Shown in pieces: positions 47,127-64,000 of a stretch of DNA of 64,000 bases. The position numbers and the translations under genes were made by a program. The notes under the pieces were generated by a model. It was not told where the DNA came from. It worked only from the letters and a program-made list of their open reading frames with translations, and ran no database searches. The number at the start of each line of letters is the position of its first letter. The stretch's first letter is position 1. Source of the DNA: Jannaschia sp. CCS1 (GTDB lineage Bacteria > Pseudomonadota > Alphaproteobacteria > Rhodobacterales > Rhodobacteraceae); NCBI RefSeq assembly GCF_000013565.1, contig NC_007802.1, forward strand, positions 1,240,001-1,304,000. Reading direction: 5' to 3'.

Positions 47127-47159
47127 TACTTCAAGTATAAAATATTTGGACTTGAAGTA
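47127..47159. promoter_or_regulatory. Long inverted repeat upstream of 2-aminobenzoate operon
   Basis: TACTTCAAGT (47127-47136) and ACTTGAAGTA (47150-47159) form a perfect 10-bp inverted repeat with a 13-base A+T-rich spacer, 55 bases before the first start codon. A site for the MarR encoded in the operon (50239-50712) is the most likely reading; TATAAAATATTTGG between the arms may hold part of the promoter. Confidence 0.78.
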
Positions 47160-47213: not shown

Positions 47214-49508
47214 ATGCGGATAGCGTGCCTTGGCGGGGGACCAGCGGGCCTCTACTTTGCGATTTCCACGAAGCTGCGGACGCCGGATGCAGAGGTTGTC
47301 GTGCTAGAGCGCAACAAGCCGGACGACACCTTTGGTTGGGGCGTTGTCCTGTCCGATGAAACCCTTGCAAACCTTGACGTTAACGACCCGGTGAGCGCGG
47401 CGAAGATCAAGTCGCACTTCGCCTATTGGGACGACATCGCGCTGCATCACAAGGGGCAGAAGCTGGTATCAAGCGGCCATGGATTCTGCGGCATCGGCCG
47501 TAAGACATTGCTGTTGATCCTGCATGAACGCGCCCGCGAGTTGGGCGTCGATCTGCGGTTCGAGACCGAGGTTAAGGCGGCCTTTGACTATATGGAGGAG
47601 TACGATGTCGTTGTGGCTTGCGATGGTCTGAATTCCAAAACGCGATTGGAATTTGCAGACAGCTTCCAGCCCGATATCGACACCCGTTTGTGTCCGTTTG
47701 TCTGGCTTGGCACGCACCAGAAATTCGATGACGCGTTTACCTTCATTTTTGAAGAGACGGACAAAGGCTGGATCTGGGTCCATGCTTATCAGTTCGATGA
47801 CGATACGGCGACGTTCATCGTGGAATGCAGTCAGGAGACGTTTGACGCCTACGGGTTCGGTGAGATGAGCCAACAGGACAGCATCGCCGTCTGCGAGGAG
47901 ATCTTCAAAGACCACCTTGACGGCCATTCATTGATGACCAACGCCAACCACATTCGCGGCTCAGCCTGGATCCGTTTCCCGCGCGTGTTGTGTGAAAAGT
48001 GGAGCCACGAAAACGTGGTTCTGCTGGGGGATGCGTCCGCTACGGCGCACTTCTCCATCGGGTCCGGCACGAAGCTGGCATTGGAAAGCGCGATTGCCCT
48101 GGCAGATGACATCGAGACCCAGCCGACGCTGGAGGCCGCCTTTGCCAACTACGAGGACAAGCGCCGCCTGGAAGTGCTGCGCCTGCAATCGGCGGCACGC
48201 AACTCGGTTGAGTGGTTCGAGGATGTGGAACGGTATCTGCATCTGGACCCGGTGCAGCTGAACTATTCCATGCTGACCCGCTCCCAGCGGATCAGCCATG
48301 AAAACCTGCGGGAACGGGATGCAGACTGGCTTGGTTCGGCTGAGGAGTGGTTCATGAGCCAGGCGGGCGTGACGTCCAATGGGAAAGCCCGCGCGCCAAT
48401 GTTCGCGCCGTTCCGATTGCGCGACATGCATCTGAAGAACCGCATCGTCGTCTCGCCGATGGCGCAATATAAGGCCGTGGACGGCGCGCCAACCGATTGG
48501 CACCTGATCCACTATGGTGAGCGTGCGAAGGGCGGTGCGGGTCTGGTTTATACGGAAATGACCTGCGTGTCGGCGGAAGGGCGGATCACCCCCGGATGCC
48601 CCGGCCTCTATGCGCCGGACCATGAGGCGGCCTGGACCCGGTTGAACGCCTTCGTCCACTCTGAAACGGAAGCGATGACCTGCTGCCAAATCGGTCACGC
48701 AGGGCGGAAAGGCTCCACCCGGATCGGGTGGGAGGGCATGGATCACCCCCTGGCCGAGGGCAACTGGCCCCTTCTGTCGGCCTCCGCCATTCCATGGTCC
48801 AATGAGAATGCGATGCCCAAGGCGATGGATCGCGGGGATATGGACGCGGTGAAAGCCGAGTTCGTGTCTGCCACGCAGATGGCAGATCGCGCGGGGTTTG
48901 ACATGGTCGAGCTGCACGCGGCCCACGGGTATCTGATCTCGTCGTTCATCTCTCCGCTGTCGAATGCGCGCACGGATGACTACGGCGGCAGCCTGGAAAA
49001 CCGTATGCGCTATCCGTTGGAGGTCTTTGACGCGATGCGTGCGGTCTGGCCCGAGGGCAAGCCGATGTCCGTGCGGATCTCGGCCAGTGATTGGGCGGGC
49101 GACGACGGTGTGACCGCGGAGGAGGCCGTGCAGATTGCGGCGATGTTTGAAGCCGCAGGGGCCGATATCATTGACGTGTCCGCGGGCCAGACCTCTACCC
49201 AGGGCAAGCCTGTCTATGGTCGCATGTTTCAGACCCCGTTGTCGGACCGCATCCGCAATGAGGCGGGCATCAAGACGATGGCCGTCGGGAACATTTATGA
49301 GGCCGATCACGTGAACTCCATTCTGATGGCGGGCCGGGCCGATCTGGTGTGTATCGCACGCCCGCATCTGGCCGACCCCTACTGGACCTTGCACGCGGCC
49401 ACTGGCCTCGGAGACCGACAGGAGGTCTGGCTAAAACCCTATGAGGCGGGTCGAGATCAGGCGTGGCGAAATGCGGACCGGGATGCCGAGATGGTGGGCA
49501 AGGTATGA
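47214..49508 (+). CDS. 2-Aminobenzoyl-CoA monooxygenase/reductase (bifunctional)
   Basis: A 764-residue two-domain flavoenzyme, preceded by GGAGGGG. The N-terminal 380 residues are an aromatic monooxygenase with the FAD motif [14 protein letters not shown] and the second FAD motif [14 protein letters not shown]. The C-terminal part (from about 397) is an Old-Yellow-Enzyme-like FMN barrel: [41 protein letters not shown] and [11 protein letters not shown]. The fusion is specific for anthraniloyl-CoA monooxygenase/reductase (abm-type) and salicylyl-CoA 5-hydroxylase relatives. It hydroxylates and reduces the ring of 2-aminobenzoyl-CoA, giving a non-aromatic 2-amino-5-oxocyclohexenyl-CoA. The ligase at 52670 supplies its substrate. 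First gene of the operon. Confidence 0.93.
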
Positions 49509-50239
49509 CGTCCCATGTGGTGATCTCCGGCGGCGGCACGGGTGTGGGCGCGGAGACCGCGAAGCAGTTCGCGCAGGCGGGCTACGCCGTGACGATCCTG
49601 GGCCGAACCGAGGCGACGTTGCAGGCGCAGGGGCTGGCCTATCAGGTGTGCGATGTCACGGACGACGTCGCCGTCAAACGCGCCATGGAAGCTGCCCGGT
49701 CAGCACGAGGTCCGATCAGCGTGGTGATCGCCAATGCCGGTGCCGCGACCTCCCAACCCTTCGCCAAGATGACCGCCGCCGATCTGTCGGCGATGACCGA
49801 TGTAAACCTGACGGGCGTGTTCAACCTGTGGCAGGCGGCTTTGCCGGATATGAAGGCCGCCAAGCAGGGCCGCATGATCGCGATTGCCTCAACCGCTGGC
49901 CTCAAGGGCTACCCTTATGTGGCGGGCTACTGCGCGGCCAAACATGGCGTTATCGGTCTGACGCGCGCCCTGGCGCTGGAACTGGCCATGTCCGGCATCA
50001 CGGTCAACGCCATTTGCCCGGGTTTCATTGAAACGCCGCTTCTGGACCGCTCCATCACCAACATCGTTGAGAAAACGGGGATGAGCGTGGACGCCGCCGC
50101 CAAGTCCTTGACGAAGGGCAACCCGCAGCGCCGCTTCATTCAGACCGACGAGGTCGCAGCAACCGCGCTTTGGCTGTGCTCAGACGCTGCAAAATCGGTA
50201 AACGGCCATGCCCTTAGCCTGTCGGGGGGGGAGATCTGA
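49505..50239 (+). CDS. Short-chain dehydrogenase/reductase
   Basis: A 244-residue SDR overlapping the monooxygenase gene by ATGA. Cofactor motif [30 protein letters not shown], catalytic Ser in [10 protein letters not shown] and [10 protein letters not shown] (Tyr-x3-Lys). The fold and position suggest a 3-hydroxyacyl-CoA-type dehydrogenase acting on ring-reduced or ring-opened intermediates of the 2-aminobenzoate pathway; the abm-type clusters usually include such an enzyme. Classical family, probably NAD-dependent. Confidence 0.88.
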
Positions 50240-50712
50240 TGCAAACGGATGAACGTACCGCGCCGGAGACCCTGTCGAAGGAACGGTTGCGCTTGTGGCT
50301 TCGATTTCTGAAAGCCAGCCGTTCGATTGAGAGCGTTCTGCGCGAGAACCTCCGCGCCGAATTCGCGACGACATTGCCCCGGTTCGATGTCATGGCCGCC
50401 CTGTCGCGGTTTGAGAATGGGCTGAAGATGAGCCAACTCTCGGACGTGCTGCGGGTGTCCAATGGCAATGTCACCGGCATCGTTGATCGGCTGTCAGAGG
50501 ATGGTTTGCTGGTCCGTGTGCCGGTTCCGGGGGACAGGCGCGCGTCTCTTGTGCGTCTCACCCGGCGCGGCGTGGAGGAGTTTCAACGTCAGGCAACAGC
50601 CCATGAGGCGTGGATCAGCGATATGCTCGGCGATTTCACCGCTGAGGAGGCGCGCGATATTCGATTGCGGCTGGAGCAACTTGAAGACAGTGCCAACGGA
50701 GACGAGACATGA
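50239..50712 (+). CDS. MarR-family regulator of aromatic CoA pathway
   Basis: A 157-residue MarR repressor with the winged helix [40 protein letters not shown] and the wing [15 protein letters not shown]. MarR proteins in CoA-dependent aromatic pathways usually respond to the aryl-CoA (as in BadR-, CouR- or CarR-type control). It overlaps both neighbours (shares base 50239 with the SDR stop; ATGA with the hydratase). Likely binds the inverted repeat at 47127. A second, different MarR is at 55270. Confidence 0.9.
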
Positions 50713-51515
50713 GCATGCGCACGGATGTGACGCACTTTATGTGCGAGATTGAAAACGGCATCGCGACGGTTGCGCTGGACCGACCCGACCGCAAGAACCC
50801 GCTGACATTCGATAGCTACGCCGAGTTGCGCGATTGGTTCCGGGATCTGCAATACGCTGATGATGTGAGTGCCGTGGTGTTTGCGTCAAACGGTGGCAAC
50901 TTCAGCTCGGGCGGGGACGTGCACGATATCATTGGGCCCCTGACCAGCATGTCGATGAAGGAGCTTCTGGCCTTCACGCGCATGACCGGCGATCTGGTCA
51001 AGGCGATGGTCAACTGCGGAAAGCCGGTGATTGCGGCCATCGACGGCATTTGCGTTGGCGCAGGCGCGATCATCGCCATGGCCTCGGACCTGCGGATCGC
51101 GACGCCGGACGCCAAGGTGGCGTTCCTGTTCACCCGCGTGGGCCTTGCGGGCTGCGATATGGGGGCTTGCGCGATCCTTCCACGGATCATCGGACAGGGC
51201 CGCGCGGCAGAGTTGCTCTATACTGGCCGGTCGATGTCTGCCGACGAAGGTCATGCCTGGGGCTTCCACAACAAGCTGGCCTCCGCAGACAATCTGGCAT
51301 CTGAGGCGCAGGCACTGGCCACCCGCATCGCGGCGGGGCCGACGTTTGGCAACATGATGACGAAGACGATGCTGGCGCAGGAATGGTCAATGTCGATTGA
51401 ACAGGCGATTGAGGCCGAGGCGCAGGCCCAGGCGATCTGCATGCAAACGGCGGATTTTGAGCGGGCCTACAAGGCCTTTGTCGCCAAGGAAAAACCAGTG
51501 TTCGAGGGCAATTGA
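50709..51515 (+). CDS. Enoyl-CoA hydratase/isomerase family protein
   Basis: A 268-residue crotonase-fold enzyme. Characteristic parts are [58 protein letters not shown] and [20 protein letters not shown]; the oxyanion-hole region is intact. One usual Glu is in [10 protein letters not shown]-type sequence as Asp. It probably hydrates an alpha,beta-unsaturated acyl-CoA made after ring opening or hydrolyses the ring in the 2-aminobenzoate pathway. Overlaps flanking genes by ATGA and TGATG. Confidence 0.92.
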
Positions 51516-52666
51516 TGGCAGACAAATCGTTCCTCAGCTGGCCGTTTTTTGAAGAGCGGCACCGTGATCTGGCAGGCGCGCTTGATGCTTGGGCGACGGC
51601 GGAGCTGGCCGGTATCGACCACAGCGATACCGATGCCGCCTGTCGCGCTTTGGTCGCTGCATTGGGGCAGGGGGGCTGGCTGAACCATGCCGCCGTGAAC
51701 CCAAAGGGCGAGGCCAAACTGGACGTGCGCACCCTGTGCCTGATCCGTGAAACACTGGCACGTCACGACGGGTTGGCGGATTTTGCTTTTGCGATGCAGG
51801 GCCTTGGGACCGGCGCGATCTCTCTGTTCGGGACGGATGCGCAGAAAGTCGAATGGCTGCCAAAGGTCCGCGCAGGCACCGCGATTTCCGCCTTCGCCCT
51901 GACGGAGCCGCAATCCGGCTCCGACGTCGCGAACTCCACCATGACGGCGACGCTGGACGGGGACGTTTATGTTCTGGACGGGGAGAAGACATGGATCAGC
52001 AATGGCGGCATCGCGGATGTCTACACGGTCTTTGCGCGCACCGGGGACGCGCCCGGCGCGCGGGGATTGTCGGCCTTTGTCGTGCCTGCGGACGCGCCCG
52101 GTCTTGAGGTCACTGAACGGCTCGAGACCATCGCACCGCATCCCCTCTCCACCCTCCGGTTCAGCGGGTGTCGTGTGCCCGCCTCCGCGCGTCTTGGCGA
52201 AAGCGGGGCGGGGTTTAAGATCGCCATGTCGGTCCTTGATGTGTTCCGCTCAACAGTGGCGGCGGCGGCGCTTGGTTTCGCGCGGCGGGCACTGGATGAG
52301 GCGATGGCCCGCGTCACCACCCGCCATGTCCAGGGCGCGCCGCTGTTTGATCTGCAAATGGTACAGGGTCACATCGCCGACATGGCCGTGGATATCGACG
52401 CGAGCGCGCTTCTGATCTACCGCGCCGCCTGGGCCAAGGATAGCGGCGCTCCGCGCGTGACGCGAGAGGCGGCGATGGCCAAGCTGTTCTCCACTGACCA
52501 GGCGCAAAAGGTCATTGACCGAGCCGTGCAATTGCATGGCGGAGACGGCGTCAGGTCCGGCGAGACTGTTGAGAAACTCTACCGTGAAATCAGGGCGTTG
52601 CGCATCTATGAGGGTGCCTCGGACGTCCAGCGTGTGATCATCGCGCGCCAGACGATCGGAGCGTAA
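51515..52666 (+). CDS. Acyl-CoA dehydrogenase
   Basis: A 383-residue FAD acyl-CoA dehydrogenase. Motifs are [56 protein letters not shown] and the C-terminal [20 protein letters not shown] and [14 protein letters not shown], where Glu in YEG is the usual base. The ATG at 51515 overlaps the hydratase stop. It probably oxidises an alicyclic or chain acyl-CoA in the beta-oxidation phase of 2-aminobenzoate breakdown, using ETF as acceptor. Confidence 0.93.
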
Positions 52667-52669
52667 CCC

Positions 52670-54289
52670 ATGCTAAGTGCCAGCGCCCATTCTGATACCT
52701 TCGCCCGCGATAACCTGCCCGCGCAGGACACGTGGCCAGAGTTTCTGCTGGACGGCTTCGCCTATCCAGATCGCCTGAATGTGGGTGCCGAGCTGACGGA
52801 CGCGATGGTCGCGCAGGGCTTCGGCGATCATACGGCGCTGATCGGCAATGGCCGCCGCCGCACGTATAAGGAGCTGACGGATTGGACGAACCGCATCGCC
52901 CATGTGCTGGTCGATGATATGGGCGTGCAGCCGGGTAATCGCGTCCTGATCCGGTCGGCCAACAATCCGGCGATGGTCGCCTGCTGGCTGGCCGCCACGA
53001 AGGTGGGCGCGGTTGTCGTGAACTCCATGCCGATGCTGCGCGCCGGAGAGATCAGCAAATATGTCGACAAGGCGCAGATTGCGTTTGCGCTGTGCGACAC
53101 CCGCCTGATGGAAGAGATGGAGGCCTGCGCTGCGTCCAATCCGACGCTGCAACGGATCATGGGCTTCGATGGCACCTCCAACCACGATGCGGAACTGGAC
53201 CGGTTGGCGTTGGAGAAACCGGTGCAATTCACCGCTGTGGCCACCGCCGCCGATGATGTGGCGCTGCTTGGCTTTACCTCAGGCTCCACTGGCGATCCCA
53301 AGGCCACCATGCACTTCCACCGCGATCTTCTGATCATCGCAGACGGTTACGCGAAGGAGGTTCTGGACGTCACACCGCAGGATGTCTTCATCGGCTCACC
53401 ACCCCTGGCCTTCACCTTCGGCCTCGGCGGCCTGGCGATTTTCCCGCTGCGGTTCGGGGCGGCCGCGACCCTGCTGGAGGTTGCCACGCCGCCCCTGATG
53501 GTCGAGATCATCGAGAAGTATAAAGCCACCGTCTGCTTCACCGCGCCCACGGCCTATCGCGCCATGTTGCGCGCGATGGATGAGGGGGCGGACCTGTCTT
53601 CGCTGCGCGCGGCTGTCTCTGCGGGAGAGACCCTGCCTGCGCCTGTCTATGACGATTGGATCGCCAAGACCGGTAAACCGATGCTTGACGGGATCGGCGC
53701 GACGGAGATGCTGCACATCTTCATCTCCAACCGGTTCGATGATCACCGACCCGCCTGCACGGGCAAACCTGTCAGCGGTTATCTTGCCAAGATCATCGGC
53801 GAAGATGGGACGGAGGTGCCGCGCGGAACGCCGGGCCGTCTGGCGCTGAAAGGGCCCACCGGATGTCGCTACCTTGGGGGTCAACGTCAGGAAGATTACG
53901 TCCAGGACGGCTGGAACATCTCGGGCGATACGTTTGTGCAGGATGAGGACGGCTATTTCCACTTCGCGGCCCGCAACGACGACATGATCATCTCCTCGGG
54001 CTACAACATCGCGGGACCTGAAGTTGAAGCAGCGTTGCTATCGCATCCGGACGTCAACGAATGTGCTGTAATCGGCGCCCCGGATGAGGAGCGCGGATCG
54101 GTGGTTGAGGCGCACATCGTGGTGACCGAGGGCGTGGCCGAGACGGCGACGCAGGCCAAGGTCTTGCAAGATCATGTGAAAGCGACGATCGCACCGTTCA
54201 AATATCCACGCAGCGTCGTGTTCGTCCGCGACCTTCCGAAAACCGCGACCGGAAAGATCCAACGGTTCCTGTTGAAGCCCGGTGGGTGA
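52670..54289 (+). CDS. 2-Aminobenzoate-CoA ligase
   Basis: A 539-residue ANL-family adenylate-forming enzyme most like aerobic aminobenzoate/benzoate-CoA ligases. The P-loop is LGFTSGSTGDPKATMHFHRD; GSPPLAFTFGLGGLAIFPLR, SAGETLPAPVYDDW, GIGATEMLHIFISNRFD and GDTFVQDEDGYFHFAARNDD follow, with catalytic Lys in KTATGKIQR. The GATEMLHIF motif matches abm-type 2-aminobenzoate-CoA ligases. It starts the pathway by making 2-aminobenzoyl-CoA for the monooxygenase/reductase at 47214. Only 3 bases separate it from the preceding gene. Confidence 0.9.
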   Translation: MLSASAHSDTFARDNLPAQDTWPEFLLDGFAYPDRLNVGAELTDAMVAQGFGDHTALIGNGRRRTYKELTDWTNRIAHVLVDDMGVQPGNRVLIRSANNPAMVACWLAATKVGAVVVNSMPMLRAGEISKYVDKAQIAFALCDTRLMEEMEACAASNPTLQRIMGFDGTSNHDAELDRLALEKPVQFTAVATAADDVALLGFTSGSTGDPKATMHFHRDLLIIADGYAKEVLDVTPQDVFIGSPPLAFTFGLGGLAIFPLRFGAAATLLEVATPPLMVEIIEKYKATVCFTAPTAYRAMLRAMDEGADLSSLRAAVSAGETLPAPVYDDWIAKTGKPMLDGIGATEMLHIFISNRFDDHRPACTGKPVSGYLAKIIGEDGTEVPRGTPGRLALKGPTGCRYLGGQRQEDYVQDGWNISGDTFVQDEDGYFHFAARNDDMIISSGYNIAGPEVEAALLSHPDVNECAVIGAPDEERGSVVEAHIVVTEGVAETATQAKVLQDHVKATIAPFKYPRSVVFVRDLPKTATGKIQRFLLKPGG

Positions 54290-54386
54290 CACAGGCTCGC
54301 CACTGAACCCCGGTGCGATCGTGCCCGCATCAAACTTCTGGAGGCGCATCGCTGACGCTCCGCAAGACCGAACTGAGACATCACGG

Positions 54387-54788
54387 ATGAAATTTTCCTA
54401 CCCGCAAAAAGTGCTCTTCAAACATTGCGATCCGGCGGGGATCGTCTTCTACCCCCGGTATTTCGAGATGATGAACGATTGCGTCGAAGGCTTCTTCGCC
54501 GAGATAGGCGCGCCGTTTGAGGGGTTTATCCCGCCTGGTGGCGTGCCAACCGTCCAGATGTCCGCGGATTTTCTGGCCCCCAGCAGGCACGGCGACCTCT
54601 TGAGTGTTGATCTTGAGATCATGCAGATCGGTCGGACCAGTATGGGCCTGTCTCACGTCGCCGTCTGCAACAATGAGCGGCGGTTCACGGCAACCTCGAC
54701 CCTTGTGAATATCGACGGCAACGGGCGACCAGACCCATGGCCTGATGCCATTCGAACAGCGATAATCCCCTACCTTCGGAGCGAATGA
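54387..54788 (+). CDS. Hotdog-fold acyl-CoA thioesterase
   Basis: A 133-residue thioesterase of the 4-hydroxybenzoyl-CoA thioesterase/YbgC type. The catalytic motif is HCDPAGIVFYPRYFEMMND with Asp at position 15, and the hotdog strands VQMSADFLAPSRHGD and SMGLSHVAVC follow. The start at 54387 is chosen since homology begins there. It may release stalled aryl-CoA esters and free CoA in the 2-aminobenzoate pathway. The RidA gene overlaps its end. Confidence 0.9.
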   Translation: MKFSYPQKVLFKHCDPAGIVFYPRYFEMMNDCVEGFFAEIGAPFEGFIPPGGVPTVQMSADFLAPSRHGDLLSVDLEIMQIGRTSMGLSHVAVCNNERRFTATSTLVNIDGNGRPDPWPDAIRTAIIPYLRSE

Positions 54789-55192
54789 TGACCAATAAAA
54801 TAGTGCAACCTGAAGGATGGGCACCCGCGAAGGGCTATGCGAACGGAATGCTGGCACCCGATGGTACGCTCTATATCGGCGGTCAGATCGGCTGGACTGC
54901 GGATCAGGAGTTCGAGAGCCACGACTTCATCGGTCAGATGGAACAGGCTCTGCGCAATATTGTAGATGTTGTGCAGGCAGCGGGCGGCGAGGTCGAGGAT
55001 ATCACCCGGCTGACGTGGTTCGTGATCGACAAGAAGGAATACGCCGCGCGTCAACGGGAAGTTGGTGAAGTCTATCGACGCGTGTTGGGGCGTCATTTTC
55101 CGGCGATGTCCATGTTGATCGTGGCAGGCTTGGTTGAAGACGACGCTTTGCTTGAGATTGAGGCAACGGCTTACATCGCCCCACCTGGCTAA
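54785..55192 (+). CDS. RidA/YjgF family enamine/imine deaminase
   Basis: A 135-residue RidA protein, overlapping the thioesterase by ATGA. The family pattern is present: GMLAPDGTLYIGGQIGWTAD, LRNIVDVVQAAGGEVEDITR, TWFVIDKKEY and a final AVDDALLEIEATAYI-type strand. The usual substrate-contacting Arg of RidA (R105 in E. coli) is not evident and is replaced in the VAGLVEDDAL region, so it belongs to one of the Rid subfamilies beyond archetypal RidA. In this context it probably hydrolyses the enamine formed when the aminobenzoyl ring is reduced, releasing ammonia. Confidence 0.88.
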   Translation: MMTNKIVQPEGWAPAKGYANGMLAPDGTLYIGGQIGWTADQEFESHDFIGQMEQALRNIVDVVQAAGGEVEDITRLTWFVIDKKEYAARQREVGEVYRRVLGRHFPAMSMLIVAGLVEDDALLEIEATAYIAPPG

Positions 55193-55269
55193 GGTCCCCT
55201 GTTCCGTGGGCTGGACGACTTCCATGCGCTTTCATATGTGTAAGGTGTCTGGATGGTGGGGAGGCGAGC

Positions 55270-55743: not shown

Positions 55744-55775
55744 TTTATCGTTTGACTTGACCGCTTTCGGCAATG

Positions 55776-55789
55776 TATGCAAATGCATA
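55776..55789. promoter_or_regulatory. MarR operator candidate before oxidoreductase operon
   Basis: TATGCA-AA-TGCATA is a 14-base palindrome 24 bases before the GTG at 55813. An ATG inside it (55777) would make the site part of the coding region, which is another reason to favour the GTG start. Confidence 0.6.
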
Positions 55790-55812
55790 TATCAACAGGC
55801 GAGGGCAGGGCC

Positions 55813-57969
55813 GTGGCAGAACGTTCCTTTGCGAAAGAAGTCCAGCACCTCAGGATCGGCGAGGGGGAGGTCTTTCGCGGTGAGGGTATTTTGGCCATCA
55901 CGAAGGCTCTGCTGGAAAATGGCGTGGGCTATGTCGCGGGGTATCAGGGTTCACCGATCTCCCATTTGATGGACGTGCTGGCCGACGCCCAGGATATTCT
56001 GGCGGAGATGGGCATTCATTTTGAAGCCTCCGCGTCTGAGGCCACGGCCGCCGCGACCCTGGCGGCGTCCGTTCACTACCCGATCCGTGGCGCCGTGACG
56101 TTCAAATCCACCGTCGGCACGAACGTCGCCTCGGACGCGCTGGCCAACCTGGCGTCTGGCGGTGTGACGGGCGGCGCGCTTGTGATCGTGGGGGAGGATT
56201 ACGGCGAAGGGTCCTCCATCATGCAGGAACGCAGCCATGCGTTTGCGATGAAAAGTCAGATCTGGCTGCTGGATCCGCGCCCCAATCTGACGTCGATGGT
56301 CAAGGCTGTGGGCGACGGGTTCGCGCTGTCTGAGGCGTCAAACAGTCCTGTCATGCTGCAAATGCGGGTGAAATCCTGTCACCTGCTGGGAGAGTTCATC
56401 GCGAAGGACAACGTTCCGCCGTCCATGACGGTCAAAGATGCCTTGGAAAACCCACGGCGCGACATAGACCGGATCGTGCTGCCGCCCGCCTCGTTCCTGC
56501 ATGAGCAGGAGAAGGTCACCAAGCGCCTTCCCGCAGCCATCGACTACATCCGCGCGAACACGCTGAATGAACGGTTTGGGCCGGTGCAGGGGAAGGTCGG
56601 GATCGTCTGCCAGGGCGGCCTTTACAACGGTGTGATCCGCGCACTTCAGCGCCTTGGGCTGGCGAATATCTATGGTGATTGTGACGTGCCATTGCATGTC
56701 CTGAATGTGACCTACCCGCTTGTGGATGATGAGGTGCTTGAGTTTGCCCGGGGCAAGGATAGCATTCTAGTCATTGAAGAAGGCCATCCCGCTTATACCG
56801 AGCAGAATATCCGCGCGATCCTGCACAAGGCGGGGGCTCGCTGCGCGGTGGACGGCAAGGGGCCGTTCCCGGAGGCTGGCGAATTGACCGGGCCGGTGAT
56901 GCTTGATGGGGTATCGAGGTTTCTCCGGGATGCAGCGCCTGATCTCATGCCAGCCGTGGCCCGTGCGCCCAATGCGCCGCCCACGCTGAAATTGCCGGAA
57001 CTTGCCGACACGGTCCCCGCCCGCCCGCCGAGCTTTTGCGTCGGTTGCCCGGAGCGCCCGATCTTCGCGGCCACCAAATTGATCGAACAGGAACTCGGAC
57101 CCCACCACATTGCCAGCGACATCGGCTGCCACCTGTTCTCCATCAACGCGCCGTTCGACCTGGGGGCGACGACGATGGGCTACGGCCTTGGGCCCGCCTC
57201 GGCAGCCGCATTCAATGACAAGACGGCGGGGCGGCGGTCGATCTCGTTTCTGGGCGATGGCGGATTCTGGCACAATGGATTGACCTCTTCGATCGGCAAC
57301 GCCGTGTTCAACGACAATGACGGCGTGATCATCATCGTCGACAACTATTATTCGGCGGCGACGGGGGGGCAGGATATTCTGTCGTCTCGGGCCGACAACA
57401 CATCGAAATCAACCAAGCACCCGATCAAGCAGGCGGTCGAAGGGATGGGTGTCAAATGGGTGCGGCAGCTGGATCGCACCTATGATGTGGGCAAGATGCA
57501 AGCGACGTTGAAGGAAGCGCTGGAAACACCGGAGACCGGGCCAAAGGTCATCATCGCGTCGTCCGAGTGTATGTTGAACCGACAGCGGCGGGAGAAACCT
57601 TTGGCAAAAAAGGCAATCGCGGACGGCAAGCGCGTGACGCGGACACGCTTTGGCGTGGATGAGGATGTGTGCACTGGTGATCATGCTTGCATCCGCCTGT
57701 CCGGCTGCCCGTCATTGTCACTGAAAACGCTTGAGGATCCGCTGCGGGATGATCCCGTGGCCAGTATCGATCAAACCTGTGTGGGTTGCGGAAATTGCGG
57801 TGAAGTGGCGGATGCGGCCGTGCTGTGCCCATCATTCTATCAGGCCGATCTGATCCAGAACCCATCCAAACTGGACCGCATCCTCAGCACTTGGCGGCAG
57901 CGCCTGATTGCCAAGCTCCAAAAGCGCCGGGATGCGCGGCGGCTGGTCTTTTCAGGAGATGGAGCTTGA
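55813..57969 (+). CDS. Indolepyruvate:ferredoxin oxidoreductase alpha-like subunit
   Basis: About 718 residues from GTG at 55813 (VAERSFAKEV, the normal start for this family; ATG 55777 is possible). The N-terminal pyruvate-oxidoreductase core has GYQGSPISHLMDVL and ASASEATAAATLAASVHYPI; TPP binding is in FLGDGGFWHNGLTSSIGNA. Cys-rich motifs CVGCPE, CTGDHACIRLSGCPS and CVGCGNCG...LCP suggest two 4Fe-4S clusters near the C-terminus. Such enzymes turn 2-oxo acids with aromatic side chains into aryl-acetyl-CoA and reduce ferredoxin. It overlaps the beta subunit gene by TTGA. Confidence 0.88.
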   Translation: MAERSFAKEVQHLRIGEGEVFRGEGILAITKALLENGVGYVAGYQGSPISHLMDVLADAQDILAEMGIHFEASASEATAAATLAASVHYPIRGAVTFKSTVGTNVASDALANLASGGVTGGALVIVGEDYGEGSSIMQERSHAFAMKSQIWLLDPRPNLTSMVKAVGDGFALSEASNSPVMLQMRVKSCHLLGEFIAKDNVPPSMTVKDALENPRRDIDRIVLPPASFLHEQEKVTKRLPAAIDYIRANTLNERFGPVQGKVGIVCQGGLYNGVIRALQRLGLANIYGDCDVPLHVLNVTYPLVDDEVLEFARGKDSILVIEEGHPAYTEQNIRAILHKAGARCAVDGKGPFPEAGELTGPVMLDGVSRFLRDAAPDLMPAVARAPNAPPTLKLPELADTVPARPPSFCVGCPERPIFAATKLIEQELGPHHIASDIGCHLFSINAPFDLGATTMGYGLGPASAAAFNDKTAGRRSISFLGDGGFWHNGLTSSIGNAVFNDNDGVIIIVDNYYSAATGGQDILSSRADNTSKSTKHPIKQAVEGMGVKWVRQLDRTYDVGKMQATLKEALETPETGPKVIIASSECMLNRQRREKPLAKKAIADGKRVTRTRFGVDEDVCTGDHACIRLSGCPSLSLKTLEDPLRDDPVASIDQTCVGCGNCGEVADAAVLCPSFYQADLIQNPSKLDRILSTWRQRLIAKLQKRRDARRLVFSGDGA

Positions 57970-59462
57970 ACGCGCCAACCAAGATCAAGAGCGCGTCGGG
58001 TGAGATTATCAAACTCGCCGTGTTGGCCGTTGGCGGACAGGGTGGGGGCGTCCTTACCAATTGGATTGCCGATCTGGCGACGCGCGGGGACTATGCCGTT
58101 CAGATGACGTCCGTGGCAGGCGTGGCGCAGCGCACGGGGGCAACGATCTACTATCTGGAGATGGCCCCAAAGTCAGCCCGCGCGCCCGTGTTCGCGCTTA
58201 GCCCGTCCCCGGGGGATCTGGACGTTCTGATCGCGGCGGAGCTGATGGAGGCGGGGCGCTCTGTCCTGCGCGGATTCGTGACGCCGGATCGCACGACGCT
58301 GATCGCTTCAAACCATCGCATTCTGTCGATTTCGGAAAAGATGGTGCCTGGTGATGGCCGTGCCGAGGGCAGTTTGGTGGCGGAGGAGATCACCAAAGCC
58401 GCGCTGAACTGCGTGTGTTTCGATATGGAAACGCTTGCCGCCAAGGAAGGCAGCATGATCTCCGCCAGCCTGTTTGGCGGCCTGGCCCGCAGTGGCGCGC
58501 TGCCGTTCGATGTGGCGCCATTTGAGGCGGTGATCGAGGCGTCCGGGCGTGGTGTGACGCAGAGCCTCGCAGCCTTCCGCGCGGCCCTGACCTACGCGCC
58601 GGATGCGGCGGCTGTCCGCACGCAGACATCGCCTGTGGTCCATGGCCCGCAGGAATTGCTGGACGGGTGGGGCACTTTGTGCGCGCGGGTTGAGGGTTTT
58701 CCTGCCGCCGCGAAGCCCATGACCCAAGCGGGTCTTGCAAAGGTCGTCGACTACCAGGATCTGGATTGCGGAAAAGAATACCTCGATCATTTAGAAGCGT
58801 TTTCATTCGACGGGGGCCTTGCCACTGCGGCTGCGAAATATGTCGCGAACGCAATGTGCTACGATGATATCTTGCGGGTTGCCGACCTCAAGACGCGGGC
58901 ATCGCGGCAAGGCAGGTTACGCGGTGAGCAGGATATTCTCGACGGCGAGATTGTTCATGTGACCGAGTATTTCCACCCCCGGGCCCAGGAAGTCTGTGGC
59001 ACATTGCCCGCCGGGTTGGGTGCGTGGATCGAGGTCCGTCCTCGCGTCTTCTCGCTGCTGGATCGTCTGACGAACAAGGGCCGGCGGATCCGGACCGATG
59101 GCATCCTGGGGTTTGGCACGTTGTGGGCTGTAAGTGCGCTGAAACCTCGTCGCCGCAAGTTTCTGAGGCATCGCCATGAGCGCGCGCATCTGGAACGTCT
59201 GCTGGGCATTGCCAAGCGCGCGGCCACGTCTGACATTCCCTTGGCGATCGAGATCTTGCAATGTCAGCGCCTGATCAAGGGCTACGCGGACACCCACGCG
59301 CGCGGCCGTTCCAAGTTCAGAAAGGTCATCGAGGCTTTGGAGCAACTGGAAGGCCGCCCCGACGCGGCGGACTGGATCAAACGGCTGCGGATAGCGGCGC
59401 TGGAAGACGAACACGGCGACGCGCTGGACGGGGCGCTTGCAACCGTGCGCTCGTTTGCTTGA
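57966..59462 (+). CDS. Indolepyruvate oxidoreductase beta-like subunit
   Basis: About 498 residues from TTG at 57966 (GGAG 8 bases upstream, overlapping the alpha stop). The N-terminal 190 residues form the gamma/beta oxidoreductase domain: VLAVGGQGGGVLTNWIADL and MTSVAGVAQRTGATIYYLE. The C-terminal 300 residues are the DUF6537-like extension found in long alphaproteobacterial members (YHPRAQ-type and RRKFLRHRHERAHLERLL). Together with the alpha subunit it makes a split version of the fused enzyme of about 1150 residues. Cytoplasmic. Confidence 0.85.
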   Translation: MNAPTKIKSASGEIIKLAVLAVGGQGGGVLTNWIADLATRGDYAVQMTSVAGVAQRTGATIYYLEMAPKSARAPVFALSPSPGDLDVLIAAELMEAGRSVLRGFVTPDRTTLIASNHRILSISEKMVPGDGRAEGSLVAEEITKAALNCVCFDMETLAAKEGSMISASLFGGLARSGALPFDVAPFEAVIEASGRGVTQSLAAFRAALTYAPDAAAVRTQTSPVVHGPQELLDGWGTLCARVEGFPAAAKPMTQAGLAKVVDYQDLDCGKEYLDHLEAFSFDGGLATAAAKYVANAMCYDDILRVADLKTRASRQGRLRGEQDILDGEIVHVTEYFHPRAQEVCGTLPAGLGAWIEVRPRVFSLLDRLTNKGRRIRTDGILGFGTLWAVSALKPRRRKFLRHRHERAHLERLLGIAKRAATSDIPLAIEILQCQRLIKGYADTHARGRSKFRKVIEALEQLEGRPDAADWIKRLRIAALEDEHGDALDGALATVRSFA

Positions 59463-59471
59463 GGTAGACCT

Positions 59472-61088
59472 ATGACCAAGCCGCGAACCCAAACGTCCGT
59501 CTTTGACGCTTTCGAGGCCACCGCTATTGCGCATCCCGCGCGGGCCTTCCTCAATGTCTTGCCCGCCACCGCTGCGATTTTTGACATCCCGGAAGGGGAA
59601 ATCACGTATGGTGCAACGCTTTCTGACGTGAGCGACATGGCGCAAGCGTTTGAAAAGGCCGGATACGCGGCAGGGATGCGGGTCGCCCTGCTTCTCGAAA
59701 ACCGCCCCACGTTCTTCATCATCTGGCTGGCGCTCAACAAAATTGGCGCGTCTGTCGTTCCGATCAACCCGGACCTGCGCGCGACGGAACTGGAATACCT
59801 GATCGGCCATTCCGAGCCTGCCCTGATCGTCGCCATCCCGTCGCGCCACGCGGACCTGATTGCAGCGGCCAAAGCGGCAGGTATCACGCTGGATGTGGTG
59901 GCACCTGGAGCGGCTTTGCCAGCGCCACGCAGCAACGCAATCGTCGCAAGGGCGTTTGACGGAGACGCGCGGGAGGCGGCGATCCTTTACACCTCCGGTA
60001 CGACGGGGAAGCCCAAGGGCTGCGTTCTGGCGAACGCGTATTTCCTGCTGGCCGGGCGTTGGTATGCGGATCTTGGCGGCATCGCCACGCTCCGCGATGA
60101 AGGGGAGCGGATGATTACACCGCTGCCTATTTTTCACATGAACGCAATGGCTTATTCCTTCATGGCGATGGTGACCGTCGGCGGGTGTCTGACGGTGCTC
60201 GACCGCTTCCACCCACGCAGTTGGTGGGCTGATGTGAAGGCGTCGGGGGCGACGTGCCTGCATTACCTGGGTGTGGTGCCAACGATGTTGATGGGGTTTG
60301 AGCCGTCGGGCGCGGACCGCGATCATGCTGTTCGGTTCGGTTTTGGCGCAGGCGTGGACCCCAAATTGCAGGCAGAATTCGAGGCGCGCTTTGGCTTTCC
60401 CTTGGTCGAGGCTTGGGCGATGACCGAGACGGGGGCGGGGGCGGTGATTGCCTCGGCCAAGGAGGATCGCCTGGTGGGGCAGGCCAGCATCGGCAAGCCG
60501 GACGCGGACGTCGAATGCCGGCTGATTGATGACGCAGGCAATGATGCGCGACAGGGAGAGTTGCTGGTGCGGCGGGCGGGCGCTGACCCGCGCTACGGTT
60601 TCTTTTCCGAGTATTACAAGAACCAGCAGGCGACGGATGAGGCCTGGGCTGACGGCTGGTTCCACACCGGCGACATCGTGCGCAAAGACGCGGCCGGGAC
60701 CTACTCCTTCGTGGATCGCAAGAAGAACGTCATCCGGAGGTCCGGCGAGAACATCGCGGCGGTTGAGGTGGAATCTATCCTTATGCGGCATCCGCGCGTC
60801 ACCGCGGTGGGCGTGGCCCCGGTTCCTGATCCGATCCGAGGCGACGAAGTCTTCGCCTGCATGACGGTGGACAATCCAAGCCCCGAATTGGCGCTGGAGA
60901 TTACGGAATGGTGCCTGGCGCAGATGGCCTATTACAAAGCGCCGGGCTACATCGCCTTTGTGGATGGGCTGCCATTGACCCCAACGCAGAAGATCCAGCG
61001 GACCGTCCTAAAAGACCTTGCAGGTCGCCTCACGACGGACCCGCAAACCGTAGTGACCGCGCACCTCAAGAAACGGCAGGCGAATTGA
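59472..61088 (+). CDS. AMP-dependent acyl-CoA synthetase
   Basis: A 538-residue ANL ligase, less like benzoate-CoA ligases than the one at 52670 and closer to crotonobetaine/long-substrate acyl-CoA ligases. The P-loop is LYTSGTTGKPKGCVLAN; PIFHMNAMAYSFMAM, EAWAMTETGAGAVIA, and the hinge with HTGDIVRKDAAGTYSFVDRK and Lys near TPTQKIQRTVLKD are intact. In this operon it probably activates an aromatic or indolic carboxylic acid. Begins 9 bases after the beta-like gene. Confidence 0.9.
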   Translation: MTKPRTQTSVFDAFEATAIAHPARAFLNVLPATAAIFDIPEGEITYGATLSDVSDMAQAFEKAGYAAGMRVALLLENRPTFFIIWLALNKIGASVVPINPDLRATELEYLIGHSEPALIVAIPSRHADLIAAAKAAGITLDVVAPGAALPAPRSNAIVARAFDGDAREAAILYTSGTTGKPKGCVLANAYFLLAGRWYADLGGIATLRDEGERMITPLPIFHMNAMAYSFMAMVTVGGCLTVLDRFHPRSWWADVKASGATCLHYLGVVPTMLMGFEPSGADRDHAVRFGFGAGVDPKLQAEFEARFGFPLVEAWAMTETGAGAVIASAKEDRLVGQASIGKPDADVECRLIDDAGNDARQGELLVRRAGADPRYGFFSEYYKNQQATDEAWADGWFHTGDIVRKDAAGTYSFVDRKKNVIRRSGENIAAVEVESILMRHPRVTAVGVAPVPDPIRGDEVFACMTVDNPSPELALEITEWCLAQMAYYKAPGYIAFVDGLPLTPTQKIQRTVLKDLAGRLTTDPQTVVTAHLKKRQAN

Positions 61089-62263
61089 TGACCCGAAGAC
61101 AGGACTATTCGGGTATCGCAATCACCGCGCCGTTTTCAATGGCCTACCAGCGGTATTCGATTGATACGGCCCATTGGTGGATCGCCAAGGCCCTGCGCGG
61201 ATCGCTGGATGGGGCGGGTTTGAAACCTGCGGATATCGACGGGTTCTCGGTCGCAAGCTTCACCCTGTTCCCCGATTCTGCCGTCGGTCTGACCCAGCAT
61301 CTTGGACTGTGCCCCCGCTGGCTGGATCACATCCCAATGGGCGGGGCCAGTGCCTCGGTCGCGTTGCGCCGCGCCGCGCGCGCGGTGCAAGCGGGCGACG
61401 CGCACATCGTGGCATGCGTGGCGGGCGACACGAACCACATCGACAGTTTTCGCAATATGTTGTCGAGCTTTTCGCGCTTTGCACAGGACGCGTCCTACCC
61501 CTATGGCTATGGTGGACCGAATGCGAATTTTGCGCTTCTCACAGATCGTTACATGCAGGAATATGGTGCCACCCGAGAGGACTTTGGCCGCATCTGCGTG
61601 GCTCAACGCGCCAATGCGCTGCGCTATCCCAATGCGGTGATGAAAAAGCCCCTTTCGCTGGAGCAATATATCAACGCGCGCCCCATCGCAGATCCCATCG
61701 CGTTGTTCGATTGTGTCATGCCCTGCGCCGGGTCCGAGTGTTTTCTGGTCATGTCCGAGGAAGAAGCCACGCGTCGCAACCTGCCCTATGCCACCCTGGG
61801 CGGTGCGATTGAACGCCACAATGCCCATGCCCAGGATGATGTCCAACTGCGGGGCGGTTGGACCATGGATGTTGATGAGCTTTACGGTATGGCCGGATGC
61901 ACGCCGGATGATATCGATCTGTTGCAGACCTATGACGATTACCCCGTGATCTCGATGATGCAGATGGAAGACCTCGGATTTTGCGCCAAGGGGGAAGGGC
62001 CAGACTTCGTGCGGCATCATGATCTGACCATTGATGGGGATTTTCCGCACAACACGTCTGGCGGGCAGTTGTCGGCGGGCCAGGCAGGCGCTGCGGGCGG
62101 CTATATCGGCATGGTGGAAGCGGTGCGGCAGGTCACCGGGACCGCTGGCGGCACGCAGGTGGCAGATGCCAGGACGGCGATGGTGTCGGGGTTTGGCATG
62201 ATCAACTATGACCGCGGGGTCTGTACCAGCGCCTCTATCCTGAAAACGGGGGGTCGGGCATGA
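61088..62263 (+). CDS. Thiolase-fold protein (SCP2/Ltp2 type), probably an aldolase
   Basis: A 391-residue thiolase-fold protein overlapping the ligase by TGATG. The SCP2/lipid-transfer branch is recognised by QLSAGQAGAAGGYIGMVEAV and the HNTSGG motif. Where thiolases have the nucleophilic Cys (CASG), this protein has Gly86 (MGGASASVAL). Thiolase-like proteins without this Cys that pair with a DUF35 partner, such as Ltp2-ChsH2, act as retro-aldolases. The next gene encodes a DUF35 protein, so a carbon-carbon cleaving aldolase complex is the most likely function. Confidence 0.82.
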   Translation: MTRRQDYSGIAITAPFSMAYQRYSIDTAHWWIAKALRGSLDGAGLKPADIDGFSVASFTLFPDSAVGLTQHLGLCPRWLDHIPMGGASASVALRRAARAVQAGDAHIVACVAGDTNHIDSFRNMLSSFSRFAQDASYPYGYGGPNANFALLTDRYMQEYGATREDFGRICVAQRANALRYPNAVMKKPLSLEQYINARPIADPIALFDCVMPCAGSECFLVMSEEEATRRNLPYATLGGAIERHNAHAQDDVQLRGGWTMDVDELYGMAGCTPDDIDLLQTYDDYPVISMMQMEDLGFCAKGEGPDFVRHHDLTIDGDFPHNTSGGQLSAGQAGAAGGYIGMVEAVRQVTGTAGGTQVADARTAMVSGFGMINYDRGVCTSASILKTGGRA

Positions 62264-63516
62264 CCATTGAACTTACCCCTCCACCCAAAAAGAACCCGCA
62301 GAAACGCTCCACCAGTGCGACCCGTCCGCCAGAGGCGCGGTCCCGTGCGGCGCTTGGCCTGAGCGCCGCCGCTGCTGAGGGACGCTTTGCGCTTCAGGTC
62401 TGTGCGGAATGTCAGGCCGTGCAATACCCGCCGCGCGATGCCTGCGCGGCGTGCATCGGCACCGATTTGGTCTGGCAAGATATCTCCCCAGATGGCCACC
62501 TGTTGGCCGAGACGACAATCCAGACCTCCACCAAGCTGTTTTTCCGCGAGCGGGCTCCCTGGCGAATGGGATCGGTCAAACTCACGGCGGGGCCCGTTGT
62601 TCTGTGTCACGTTCACGGCGATTGCACCCGTGGCGGTCCAGTGAAGATATTGAACCGTTTGGATAAATCAGGCCAAGCCGTGCTAATCGCAATTCCCCCC
62701 GAGAGGACCGAGCATATGGATGATGACCCCCAACTCCGCGCGATGTCCGCCAACCCCAAGCACCGTCGCATCCTGATCACCGACGCCTGGAACCCAAACA
62801 CGCCCGCCTTGGCGAAGGCTCTGTTGGAGGCGGGGGCCGCGACGATCTTTGTGGGTGAAGCAGAAAGCTGGCGGCCCCATCCCAACCGCGACACGCTGGC
62901 GGGGATGGAGAATGTGGACATCCTGCCGCTGGACGTGACCGACACGGCTTCGGTCCAGACACTTGCCGGAGAGATTGGCGGCAAGACCGACATCCTTATA
63001 AACAACGCCCGCTTCATGCGCCCGGGCGGCGTCCTGGCGCGCGGGGACACAGGGTTTGCCCGTGATGAGATGGAGGTGAATTACCTCGGGCTCATGCGGC
63101 TTGCGCAGGCCTTTGGTCCCGGCATGTGCGCGCGAATGGCAGATGGGGTGAACTCCGCCGCGGCCTGGGTCAACATTCTGTCCGCCCACGCGTTGTCCAA
63201 TGCGCCGGATTATGGGTGTTTCTCGGCCTCCAACGCCGCCGCCTACTCCCTCAGCCAATCGTTGCGTGGAGAGTTCCGCAGCGCCGGGCTGCGGGTCATG
63301 AACGTCTTTGTGGGACCGACGGACGATGATTGGTACGCCCCTTTGCCACCGCCCAAAGTGCTGCCCACAGGCCTGGCACGATCTGTCGTGGATGGTCTTC
63401 GCGACGGGCTGGAGGACGTCTGGTGCGGTGACATCGCCAAAGACATGCGCGACCGCTGGCGGCGTGATGCAAAGGTGCTGGAGCGGGAGATGACATTCGG
63501 GAGTGAAGGCGCATGA
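62260..63516 (+). CDS. DUF35 OB-fold/zinc-ribbon protein fused to degenerate SDR
   Basis: A 418-residue fusion. Residues 40-148 are a DUF35-type partner domain with a rubredoxin-like zinc ribbon (Cys48, Cys51, Cys62, Cys65 in VCAEC and ACAAC) and an OB-fold (LAETTIQTSTKLFF, WRMGSVKLTAGPVVL). Residues about 167-410 are an SDR domain (ILITDAW, LINNAR). The SDR nucleotide motif TGxxxGxG is missing, and Tyr and Lys of YxxxK are Phe321 and Asn325 in FSASN, so it is probably non-catalytic. Similar pairs of thiolase-like and DUF35 proteins form a single functional complex. ATGA overlaps on both sides. Confidence 0.85.
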   Translation: MTIELTPPPKKNPQKRSTSATRPPEARSRAALGLSAAAAEGRFALQVCAECQAVQYPPRDACAACIGTDLVWQDISPDGHLLAETTIQTSTKLFFRERAPWRMGSVKLTAGPVVLCHVHGDCTRGGPVKILNRLDKSGQAVLIAIPPERTEHMDDDPQLRAMSANPKHRRILITDAWNPNTPALAKALLEAGAATIFVGEAESWRPHPNRDTLAGMENVDILPLDVTDTASVQTLAGEIGGKTDILINNARFMRPGGVLARGDTGFARDEMEVNYLGLMRLAQAFGPGMCARMADGVNSAAAWVNILSAHALSNAPDYGCFSASNAAAYSLSQSLRGEFRSAGLRVMNVFVGPTDDDWYAPLPPPKVLPTGLARSVVDGLRDGLEDVWCGDIAKDMRDRWRRDAKVLEREMTFGSEGA

Positions 63517-64000
63517 GCAACCTTGAAAGTTTGGCTGCGGACATCACCGCCGGCACCGTGCGCATCGTCGATCTGACCCACACATTGGACCCAGATTTTC
63601 CGGTTATCATCTTGCCGCCGGAATTCGGCCAATGTGCCCGGTTTCGCATGGAAGAGATCAGCGCCTACGACCATCGCGGGCCAGCGTGGAAGTGGCACAA
63701 CCTGACCTTGTCCGAGCATACGGGCACCCATTTCGACGCGCCGTCGCACTGGATATCTGGCCGTGATGTGCCCAACGGCTCGGTCGATGAAATCCCGGTG
63801 GAGGCGTTTGTCGGCCCGGTCGTGGTCATCGATTGCTCGGCGGGCGCTGCGGCAGACGATGATTTTGAGCTGACGCCAGAGGTTATCGAGGCGTGGGAGG
63901 CGGAGCACGGGGTGATCCCGATAGGTGCGTGGGTGTTGATGCGCACCGACTGGTCCAAACGATCCGGCGCGGCGTATCTGAACATGCGCGAGGATGGTCC
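63513..64000 (+). CDS. Cyclase-family hydrolase (isatin hydrolase/kynurenine formamidase type), 3' part beyond window
   Basis: The reading frame starts with ATG at 63513 (ATGA overlap) and is open to the window end. The visible 162 residues contain the metal-binding motif SEHTGTHFDAPSHW with His69, His73, Asp75 and His79, as in the cyclase superfamily of isatin hydrolases and KynB. Members open the ring of isatin or hydrolyse N-formylkynurenine, both giving anthranilate-related products. Either activity fits a neighbour of the 2-aminobenzoate operon. The C-terminus is not seen. Confidence 0.85.
   Translation, partial: MSNLESLAADITAGTVRIVDLTHTLDPDFPVIILPPEFGQCARFRMEEISAYDHRGPAWKWHNLTLSEHTGTHFDAPSHWISGRDVPNGSVDEIPVEAFVGPVVVIDCSAGAAADDDFELTPEVIEAWEAEHGVIPIGAWVLMRTDWSKRSGAAYLNMREDG

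Follow-up and report, generated by a model that had tools for sequence, protein, structure and literature searches.

A predicted iad-like indole-3-acetate locus directly behind an abm-type operon in Jannaschia sp. CCS1, and a probable coenzyme A-linked route joining the two

Introduction

In the 64,000-nucleotide stretch of Jannaschia sp. CCS1 DNA analysed here (hereafter the window), a gene set of the abm type, associated with 2-aminobenzoate (anthranilate), is followed directly by one that resembles the iad loci for the auxin indole-3-acetic acid (IAA). The abm operon for aerobic 2-aminobenzoate degradation, known from Azoarcus/Aromatoleum evansii, combines a monooxygenase/reductase fusion with a short-chain dehydrogenase/reductase (SDR), a MarR regulator, a coenzyme A (CoA) ligase, an enoyl-CoA hydratase, an acyl-CoA dehydrogenase, a thioesterase and a Rid protein; all these families recur in the window, the ligase with a score just under its cut-off. 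The ligase and monooxygenase/reductase of the operon are named in PMC6221969.

The iad-like IAA loci are described from Variovorax paradoxus CL14, Bradyrhizobium and Achromobacter (PMC9613470, PMC12633357); iadA/iotA and iadB/iorB serve as their markers (PMC9613470), and iadR, iadR2 and iadA to iadJ all have counterparts here. In Variovorax, iadCDE, iadF, iadG, iadH, iadI and iadJ were assigned from mutants and annotation (PMC12633357), and dioxindole, isatin, isatinic acid and anthranilate were reported in cultures (PMC9613470). For IadAB, the passages of open-licence literature searched, including those of PMC9613470, PMC11630574 and PMC10374108, assign no reaction; a word search of the main text of PMC12633357 returned neither iadA nor iadB, and the passages on iad loci do not join IadAB to abm.

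We consider it probable, at roughly 70%, that the iad-like locus and the abm operon in front of it work as one CoA-linked route. As reported for Variovorax, IadCDE and IadJ would oxidise IAA to dioxindole-3-acetate, of which IadF would form the CoA thioester; IadG and the DUF35 part of IadH would then cleave this tertiary β-hydroxyacyl-CoA, dioxindole-3-acetyl-CoA, by a retro-aldol reaction into isatin and acetyl-CoA, and IadI would open isatin to isatinate (2-aminophenylglyoxylate). Because isatinate is a 2-oxo acid and IadAB a 2-oxoacid oxidoreductase, IadAB most likely carries out the oxidative decarboxylation of isatinate with CoA to 2-aminobenzoyl-CoA, the substrate of AbmA, which would bypass free anthranilate and leave the abm CoA ligase to serve anthranilate in its free form. 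Gene content, family membership and co-occurrence were read from the sequences, as set out below; the two new enzyme steps, and the order in which the organism would use them, are predictions.

Results

Organisation of the two blocks

The genome carrying the window (positions 1240001-1304000) measures 4.4 Mb in two contigs. Between window positions 47214 and 64000 lie 15 genes, all on the plus strand, eight in block 1 (47214-55192) and seven in block 2 (from 55294 on); neighbours overlap by 1-4 bases at nine of the 14 junctions, and the other five are gaps of 3, 97, 101, 69 and 9 bases. An initial annotation of the window had described a run of 16 plus-strand genes with mostly overlapping ends, of which the strand and the overlaps hold and the count drops to 15, the last gene being cut by the window end. 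Nor does this run make up the entire locus, which extends ~7.3 kb past the window, to window position 71275. Block 1 reads as follows.

47214-49508, plus strand: abmA-type 2-aminobenzoyl-CoA monooxygenase/reductase (ABM), an FAD monooxygenase fused to an old yellow enzyme (OYE); NF006101, 1297.5 bits, cut-off 1078
49505-50239, plus strand: SDR dehydrogenase of the abm operon; family profile match
50239-50712, plus strand: MarR regulator of the abm operon; family profile match
50709-51515, plus strand: enoyl-CoA hydratase of the abm operon; NF006107, 479 bits, cut-off 330
51512-52666, plus strand: acyl-CoA dehydrogenase of the abm operon; family profile match
52670-54289, plus strand: aminobenzoate/benzoate-CoA ligase family protein; TIGR02262, 359.7 bits, just under the cut-off of 375.25
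54387-54788, plus strand: 4HBT-type acyl-CoA thioesterase; TIGR02799/TIGR00051, under cut-off
54785-55192, plus strand: Rid family protein; family profile match

All eight families proposed for an abm-type operon in the initial annotation were recovered, with the monooxygenase/OYE fusion above the cut-off of NF006101 (NCBI name salicylyl-CoA 5-hydroxylase/oxidoreductase), and block 1 is, judged by these families, an abm-type 2-aminobenzoyl-CoA operon. It differs from the operon known from A. evansii in that an IAA locus comes next, which could supply the CoA thioester without the ligase. This second locus starts in block 2 and continues in the adjoining stretch L003, whose positions plus 63000 give window coordinates.

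55294-55743, plus strand: putative iadR2-type MarR regulator; among solved structures nearest to 3cjn and 7kym, with 3cdh a weaker match
55813-57969, plus strand: iadA, large subunit of a 2-oxoacid oxidoreductase, proposed to oxidise isatinate; probable GTG start, from homologues beginning MAERSF
57966-59462, plus strand: iadB, small/beta subunit (POR domain and DUF6537) and partner of iadA; NF006179, 670 bits, cut-off 348; TTG start
59472-61088, plus strand: iadF, AMP-forming acyl-CoA ligase, proposed to activate dioxindole-3-acetate; family match, and syntenic with core genes of iad loci elsewhere
61085-62263, plus strand: iadG, Cys-less thiolase-fold protein, proposed retro-aldolase; relatives 9myr, 4u4e and 6ok1; signature GGASA, GQ, YDDY
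62260-63516, plus strand: iadH, ChsH2-type DUF35 (zinc ribbon and OB) fused to an SDR; PF12172, PF01796, PF00106
63513-64000, plus strand, the gene running on to window position 64289: iadI, isatin hydrolase A-like; ~520 bits to 5nna/5nnb
L003:4272-4757, minus strand: second MarR, putative iadR; 187 bits to 3cdh
L003:4781-5749, plus strand: iadC, reductase; family match
L003:5764-7077 (window 68764-70077), plus strand: iadD, Rieske oxygenase subunit; 543 bits to 9o71, 539 bits to 7yls
L003:7074-7553, plus strand: iadE; family match
L003:7550-8275, plus strand: iadJ, SDR; family match

Both markers of iad-like loci, iorB/iadB and iotA/iadA, are present in block 2, and this block together with the genes past the window end is, on gene content, an iad-like IAA locus. 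Its oxygenase is related to that of Variovorax, 9O71 being the IadDE structure from that organism (PMC12633357), and the second MarR is a close relative of 3cdh, the regulator from Ruegeria pomeroyi whose reported affinity for IAA was the highest (PMC9613470); the MarR at 55294 is taken as the IadR2 type because it lies closest to 3cjn and 7kym rather than to 3cdh. Past iadI, a gene of the cyclase type, follow minus-strand genes of a TRAP transporter, where Variovorax has ABC-type binding proteins, and the locus stands directly behind a complete abm operon. The families that the initial annotation had named for the second set (a MarR regulator, a pair like the indolepyruvate oxidoreductases, a CoA ligase, a thiolase fold and a DUF35-SDR fusion) all stand; its remark that no described pathway has this exact set no longer applies to block 2, which corresponds to a known type of locus (PMC9613470). 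The iad oxygenase had gone unseen because iadCDE fall outside the window.

Distribution of IadA, isatin hydrolase and ABM

We searched a family set of 150 genomes, each with its own genus label, and a phylum set of 397 genomes. In the family set, IadA was matched in 42 genomes at an E-value of 1e-20, with identities of at least 65% in 24, 52-53% in four, and then a drop to ~30%; the 24 were kept as IadA-positive, one of them with the gene split over two contigs. ABM was matched in 70 genomes at 1e-60, of which 51 were kept and 19, where one half matched at a time, were dropped. Isatin hydrolase (at least 49% identity) is found in 23 of the 24 IadA-positive genomes and in none of the other 126 (Fisher's exact test on 23/1/0/126, p=3e-26), the sole exception, G139, being an assembly of 370 contigs and 92% completeness. 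IadD (at least 64% identity) occurs in only 13 genomes, every one of them IadA-positive, and among the 11 IadA genomes that lack it, isatin hydrolase is present in ten and ABM in all 11. An action of IadAB on isatinate would explain why IadA tracks isatin hydrolase more closely than it does the Rieske enzyme.

The co-occurrence of the two blocks, which the initial annotation had put forward as a check, is borne out as well: ABM is present in 22 of the 24 IadA-positive genomes and in 29 of the 126 others (22/2/29/97, p=2e-10). As a control we used the long form of indolepyruvate oxidoreductase, classed as present in 18 genomes from matches at 1e-20, so that some may be missed; its association with isatin hydrolase is weak (7/18 vs 16/132, p=0.008), and for ABM the table is 10/8/41/91 (p=0.06).

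In the phylum set, 32 genomes match IadA and 28 were kept (at least 62% identity), the other four having a sister family only, and 34 match isatin hydrolase, of which 28 were kept (at least 50%) and six at 36-43% identity were dropped. Both are present in 26 genomes, IadA alone in two and the hydrolase alone in two; many of the positives belong to one genus (g177). The two with IadA alone are G358 and G168, which carries a plasmid copy with an iadB shortened near an IS66 element. One genome with the hydrolase alone (G341) has, ~36 kb away on the same contig, an AntA that exceeds its cut-off with 927.7 bits.

IadAB as a separate branch of the 2-oxoacid oxidoreductases

IadAB carry PF02775 and PF01558, domains of the 2-oxoacid oxidoreductase superfamily, with a thiamine diphosphate (ThDP) domain, a POR domain and Cys-rich ferredoxin-like motifs; C620, C626, C632, C656, C659, C662 and C672 are invariant in all 13 sequences aligned. 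Domains of this superfamily are shared with the indolepyruvate oxidoreductase IorAB and with phenylglyoxylate oxidoreductase. IadA differs in forming its own clade (support 0.992, 127 sequences including duplicate records), in its tie to isatin hydrolase, and in its score of 280.5 bits against the indolepyruvate ferredoxin oxidoreductase model TIGR03336, whose cut-off is 650.9. The indolepyruvate-oxidoreductase-like entry step of the initial annotation is given up as the main reading, and the oxidoreductase is better placed after isatin hydrolase.

A sequence search of the PDB with IadA gave no match at E 0.001. When the low-confidence AlphaFold model of IadA was compared by Foldseek, benzoylformate decarboxylases and acetohydroxyacid synthases headed the matches listed, at TM-scores of ~0.34 and a root mean square deviation of ~20; benzoylformate resembles isatinate, but the likeness is that of a generic ThDP fold, and we left it unused as evidence for the substrate.

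The sister family of IadAB (51-54% identity) is found in four genomes without isatin hydrolase (L059, L060, L061 and L062), with a thioesterase gene in all four stretches. It accounts for the four family-set genomes at 52-53% identity and for eight matches at 51-54% in the phylum set; from the ten neighbours scanned (LysR, oxoprolinase, NnrS and others), no shared function emerged.

Isatin hydrolase and the side-chain step

The two isatin hydrolases of Labrenzia aggregata, A (5nna/5nnb) and B (4j0n), are the described relatives of IadI, which is closest to A (520 bits over 255 residues of 5nnb); its metal motif, HTGTHFDAPSH, fits the consensus HxG[T/A]HxDxPxH without difference (PMC6117287), and the same activity is predicted here. 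The initial annotation had left the protein between isatin hydrolase and KynB; isatin hydrolase stands, and kynurenine formamidase was rejected, the part of the gene inside the window reaching 32.7 bits against a TIGR03035 cut-off of 223.

For the step before it, the closest described systems are the steroid side-chain aldolases Ltp2-ChsH2 and Sal-Shy, with which IadG and IadH have in common the thiolase fold, the absence of the first-site Cys, a catalytic-Tyr motif and a DUF35 partner. 6OK1, one of the solved relatives of IadG beside 9myr and 4u4e, is TcLtp2 with its DUF35 partner, and the catalytic Tyr lies in YDHF of TcLtp2 and in YDCY of CtSal, which both have such partners (PMC12329534). 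In all 16 IadG homologues looked at, the thiolase Cys site reads GG(A/V)S and the GH motif GQ, with YDDY kept, so the Cys-less thiolase-fold protein of the initial annotation is upheld, and IadH supplies the DUF35 partner in its ChsH2-type zinc-ribbon and OB domains (PF12172 and PF01796). The differences are that DUF35 is here fused to an SDR and not to a hydratase, that the motif is YDDY, and that, of the catalytic acids, the place of CtSal Cys304 is taken by Asp and that of TcLtp2 Tyr344 has no clear equivalent in the alignment. IadG and the DUF35 half of IadH thus resemble the Ltp2/Sal retro-aldolases and may release isatin and acetyl-CoA, a proposal that departs from the ketothiolase-plus-reduction scheme for the side chain in PMC12633357. 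Isatin and dioxindole may be converted into each other by the SDR half of IadH, and the C8H7NO2 found in Variovorax would be explained in this way.

Neighbourhoods of IadAB in other genomes

Among 585 relatives of IadA we kept 80 stretches as named IadA loci, some of them duplicates of one record. Isatin hydrolase is in view in 55, abm genes in 18 and iad core genes in ten; for the 63 stretches of at least 22 kb the counts are 46, 14 and seven. IadA and ABM stand together in 25 of the 128 stretches examined, on the same strand in 20 of these, and an abm-type ligase is seen in one of the 25, which end early and in a few cases duplicate one record. A Rhizobiaceae metagenome-assembled genome (L150) repeats the order of the window, with abm genes, thioesterase, Rid, iadR2, iadA and iadB. 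The abm operon also lies near IadAB and isatin hydrolase in four genomes (G095, G029, G110 and G071), and two others (G334 and G385) have the run iadA-iadB-thioesterase-ABM monooxygenase. On plasmid pSBC1_4 of Caballeronia sp. SBC1 (L183:14825-21700), IadAB, a thioesterase and the ABM monooxygenase are followed by a gentisate/5-aminosalicylate-dioxygenase-like cupin (under cut-offs), an FAA hydrolase, and nitrilase-like and racemase-like genes, with a cyclase gene at some distance and no abm-type ligase seen in the 24 kb stretch, a gene set that suggests another outlet by ring cleavage.

In the IadD-less genomes the hydrolase lies near IadAB in ten of 11 cases; for the copy in G050, to which comparison with the PDB was limited, the nearest structure is isatin hydrolase B (4j0n, 526 bits). 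In two such genomes (L043:11972-17580 and L044:7808-9373), FAD amine-oxidase-like proteins stand beside isatin hydrolase and IadAB, in L043 also with a family 5 solute-binding protein and an ABC permease, and these genes may make or import a precursor of isatin.

On a Hydrogenophaga sp. PBL-H3 plasmid (L181:9001-11349) and in L165, IadA stands beside a Rieske oxygenase and a glutamine-synthetase-like gene set, presumably of the aniline-dioxygenase type; plasmids of this kind include some of Variovorax from linuron-contaminated soil, with iadB shortened near an IS66 element. In three relatives with abm and without IadA (L184, L185 and L186), the thioesterase gene between ligase and Rid has lost all but its final 32-33 codons in two, yet is of full length in the third, and we dropped the idea that the thioesterase is a companion of IadAB.

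Candidate operators and origin of the locus

Two sites ahead of the blocks were read from the sequence.

47128-47159, no strand: inverted repeat TACTTCAAGT / ACTTGAAGTA ahead of abmA, candidate operator of the block 1 MarR
55776-55789, no strand: TATGCAAATGCATA, a perfect palindrome upstream of iadA and candidate Iad operator

The two differ from each other. With up to two mismatches, TATGCAAATGCATA has one match in the window, no more than chance (mean 1.26), but lies upstream of iadA in 18 of the 80 named loci against 0/80 in-gene controls. Related sites precede the TRAP genes (L003:4250) and stand at the start of iadC (L003:4780), with two or more matches in 9/200 shuffles, and TATGCANNTGCATA is a candidate target of both Iad MarRs. 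In Variovorax a repressor site lies between iadR and iadA (PMC9613470); since this site, released by IAA, precedes iadA, iadA there answers to IAA itself.

Within the genus of the source genome, IadA is present in one of 13 genomes and ABM in seven, and the alignment of the abm operon with three relatives stops at position 55178. From these counts and the end of the alignment we infer that IadA was gained downstream of an abm operon of a type that stands by itself in relatives, a conclusion covering IadA and ABM among the genes concerned.

Discussion

The initial annotation had seen in block 2 a feeder of block 1, with indolic input, in which the oxidoreductase attacks an arylpyruvate. The feeding and the indolic input remain; IAA is most likely attacked by the oxygenase instead, with IadD at 543 bits to 9o71. 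If IadAB were an indolepyruvate or arylpyruvate oxidoreductase, it would form indoleacetyl-CoA from tryptophan, a thioesterase would release IAA, and the locus would be fed from the top; the relationship of both subunits to those of IorAB, the thioesterases that often come after iadB and the aminotransferase genes in the IadAB neighbourhoods of R. pomeroyi and Caballeronia are in keeping with this. We regard it as very improbable and set it aside as the principal explanation: IadA is far under the cut-off of the indolepyruvate model, it tracks isatin hydrolase, the site of an IAA-released repressor lies ahead of iadA in Variovorax (PMC9613470), 11 of the 24 IadA genomes lack the IadD needed to use IAA (the search covering iadD and not the iac genes), and neither the 15 genes of the run nor iadCDEJ include an aminotransferase. 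Nor do we think it probable that abm and iad are adjacent by accident, with IadAB acting on something else and isatinate passing to anthranilate spontaneously or by housekeeping enzymes. In Variovorax, iadC-K2 does suffice to convert IAA into anthranilate (PMC12633357), and the presence of IadA in 1/13 against ABM in 7/13 genomes of the genus means that IadA came separately, but the near one-to-one distribution of IadA and isatin hydrolase, the joint occurrence of IadA and ABM in 25/128 stretches with 20/25 on the same strand, and the shared gene order of L150 all speak against chance.

Closer to our own reading is a version in which IadAB does oxidise isatinate and a neighbouring thioesterase then releases 2-aminobenzoyl-CoA, so that free anthranilate is the physiological product, the blocks are joined through anthranilate and again require the CoA ligase. 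Thioesterase genes adjoin iadB in many loci, the window has one ahead of iadR2, no ABM was found in two genomes with IadA (G013 and G099), and the product that was measured in Variovorax is anthranilate (PMC9613470). We hold this version to be possible though rather unlikely, given that 11/11 IadA genomes without IadD keep ABM, and that runs of IadAB, thioesterase and CoA-thioester monooxygenase occur with no ligase seen in the stretch, even if a ligase elsewhere in those genomes is possible.

Several observations weigh against a CoA-linked route through IadAB. In Variovorax, iadC-K2 alone restores anthranilate in a deletion of the locus (PMC12633357), which makes IadA dispensable for anthranilate formation in that organism. 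By way of a thioesterase, the route could also end in anthranilate. In G013 and G099, neither ABM at threshold nor AntA over its cut-off was found, and in G050 and G126 the ABM identity is merely 49-50% (50% in G050, one of the 11 genomes without IadD). No isatin hydrolase is in view in 25 of the 80 named IadA stretches (17 of the 63 of at least 22 kb), the 34 kb around IadAB of the IAA degrader R. pomeroyi show neither isatin hydrolase nor ABM, and G416 (L162:6951-18846) has isatin hydrolase within an abm operon in a genome where the search found no IadA. The AlphaFold model of IadA is poor (mean pLDDT 62.8, 13 sequences), and related genomes and duplicate records among the stretches make the p-values and counts overstate independence.

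One published result speaks for the route: C8H7NO3 and C7H7NO accumulate strongly only in Variovorax strains that overexpress iadC-K2 (PMC12633357), a set without iadA in a strain whose background deletion covers iadA. On our own reading the two formulas fit isatinate and 2-aminobenzaldehyde; N-formylanthranilate was excluded by the authors (PMC12633357).

The type of locus is thus known, its pairing with abm was not found described, and the proposal for the two reactions is well supported as a prediction. On balance we are also inclined to see IadAB as a novel type of aryl-glyoxylate oxidoreductase from aerobic organisms, an isatinate:acceptor oxidoreductase (CoA-acylating), which with isatin hydrolase would form a portable module from isatin to aryl-CoA on alpha- and betaproteobacterial chromosomes and plasmids, present also without the auxin oxygenase and docking onto abm or gentisate-type ring cleavage. 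A plasmid of Sulfitobacter indolifex, with its order cyclase-MarR-iadA-iadB, is an example of the wider distribution that this suggests for the isatin module. Around plant roots the iad pathway reduces auxin, and root bacteria are being engineered to carry it (PMC12633357); the marker genes of this pathway, iadA and iadB, are here given a proposed, testable reaction, as is the side-chain step so far assigned from annotation, and in hosts with abm the release of anthranilate may be a leak, not an end product. If the portable module is real, indolic compounds would enter aryl-CoA metabolism without free anthranilate and without the ATP spent by the ligase.

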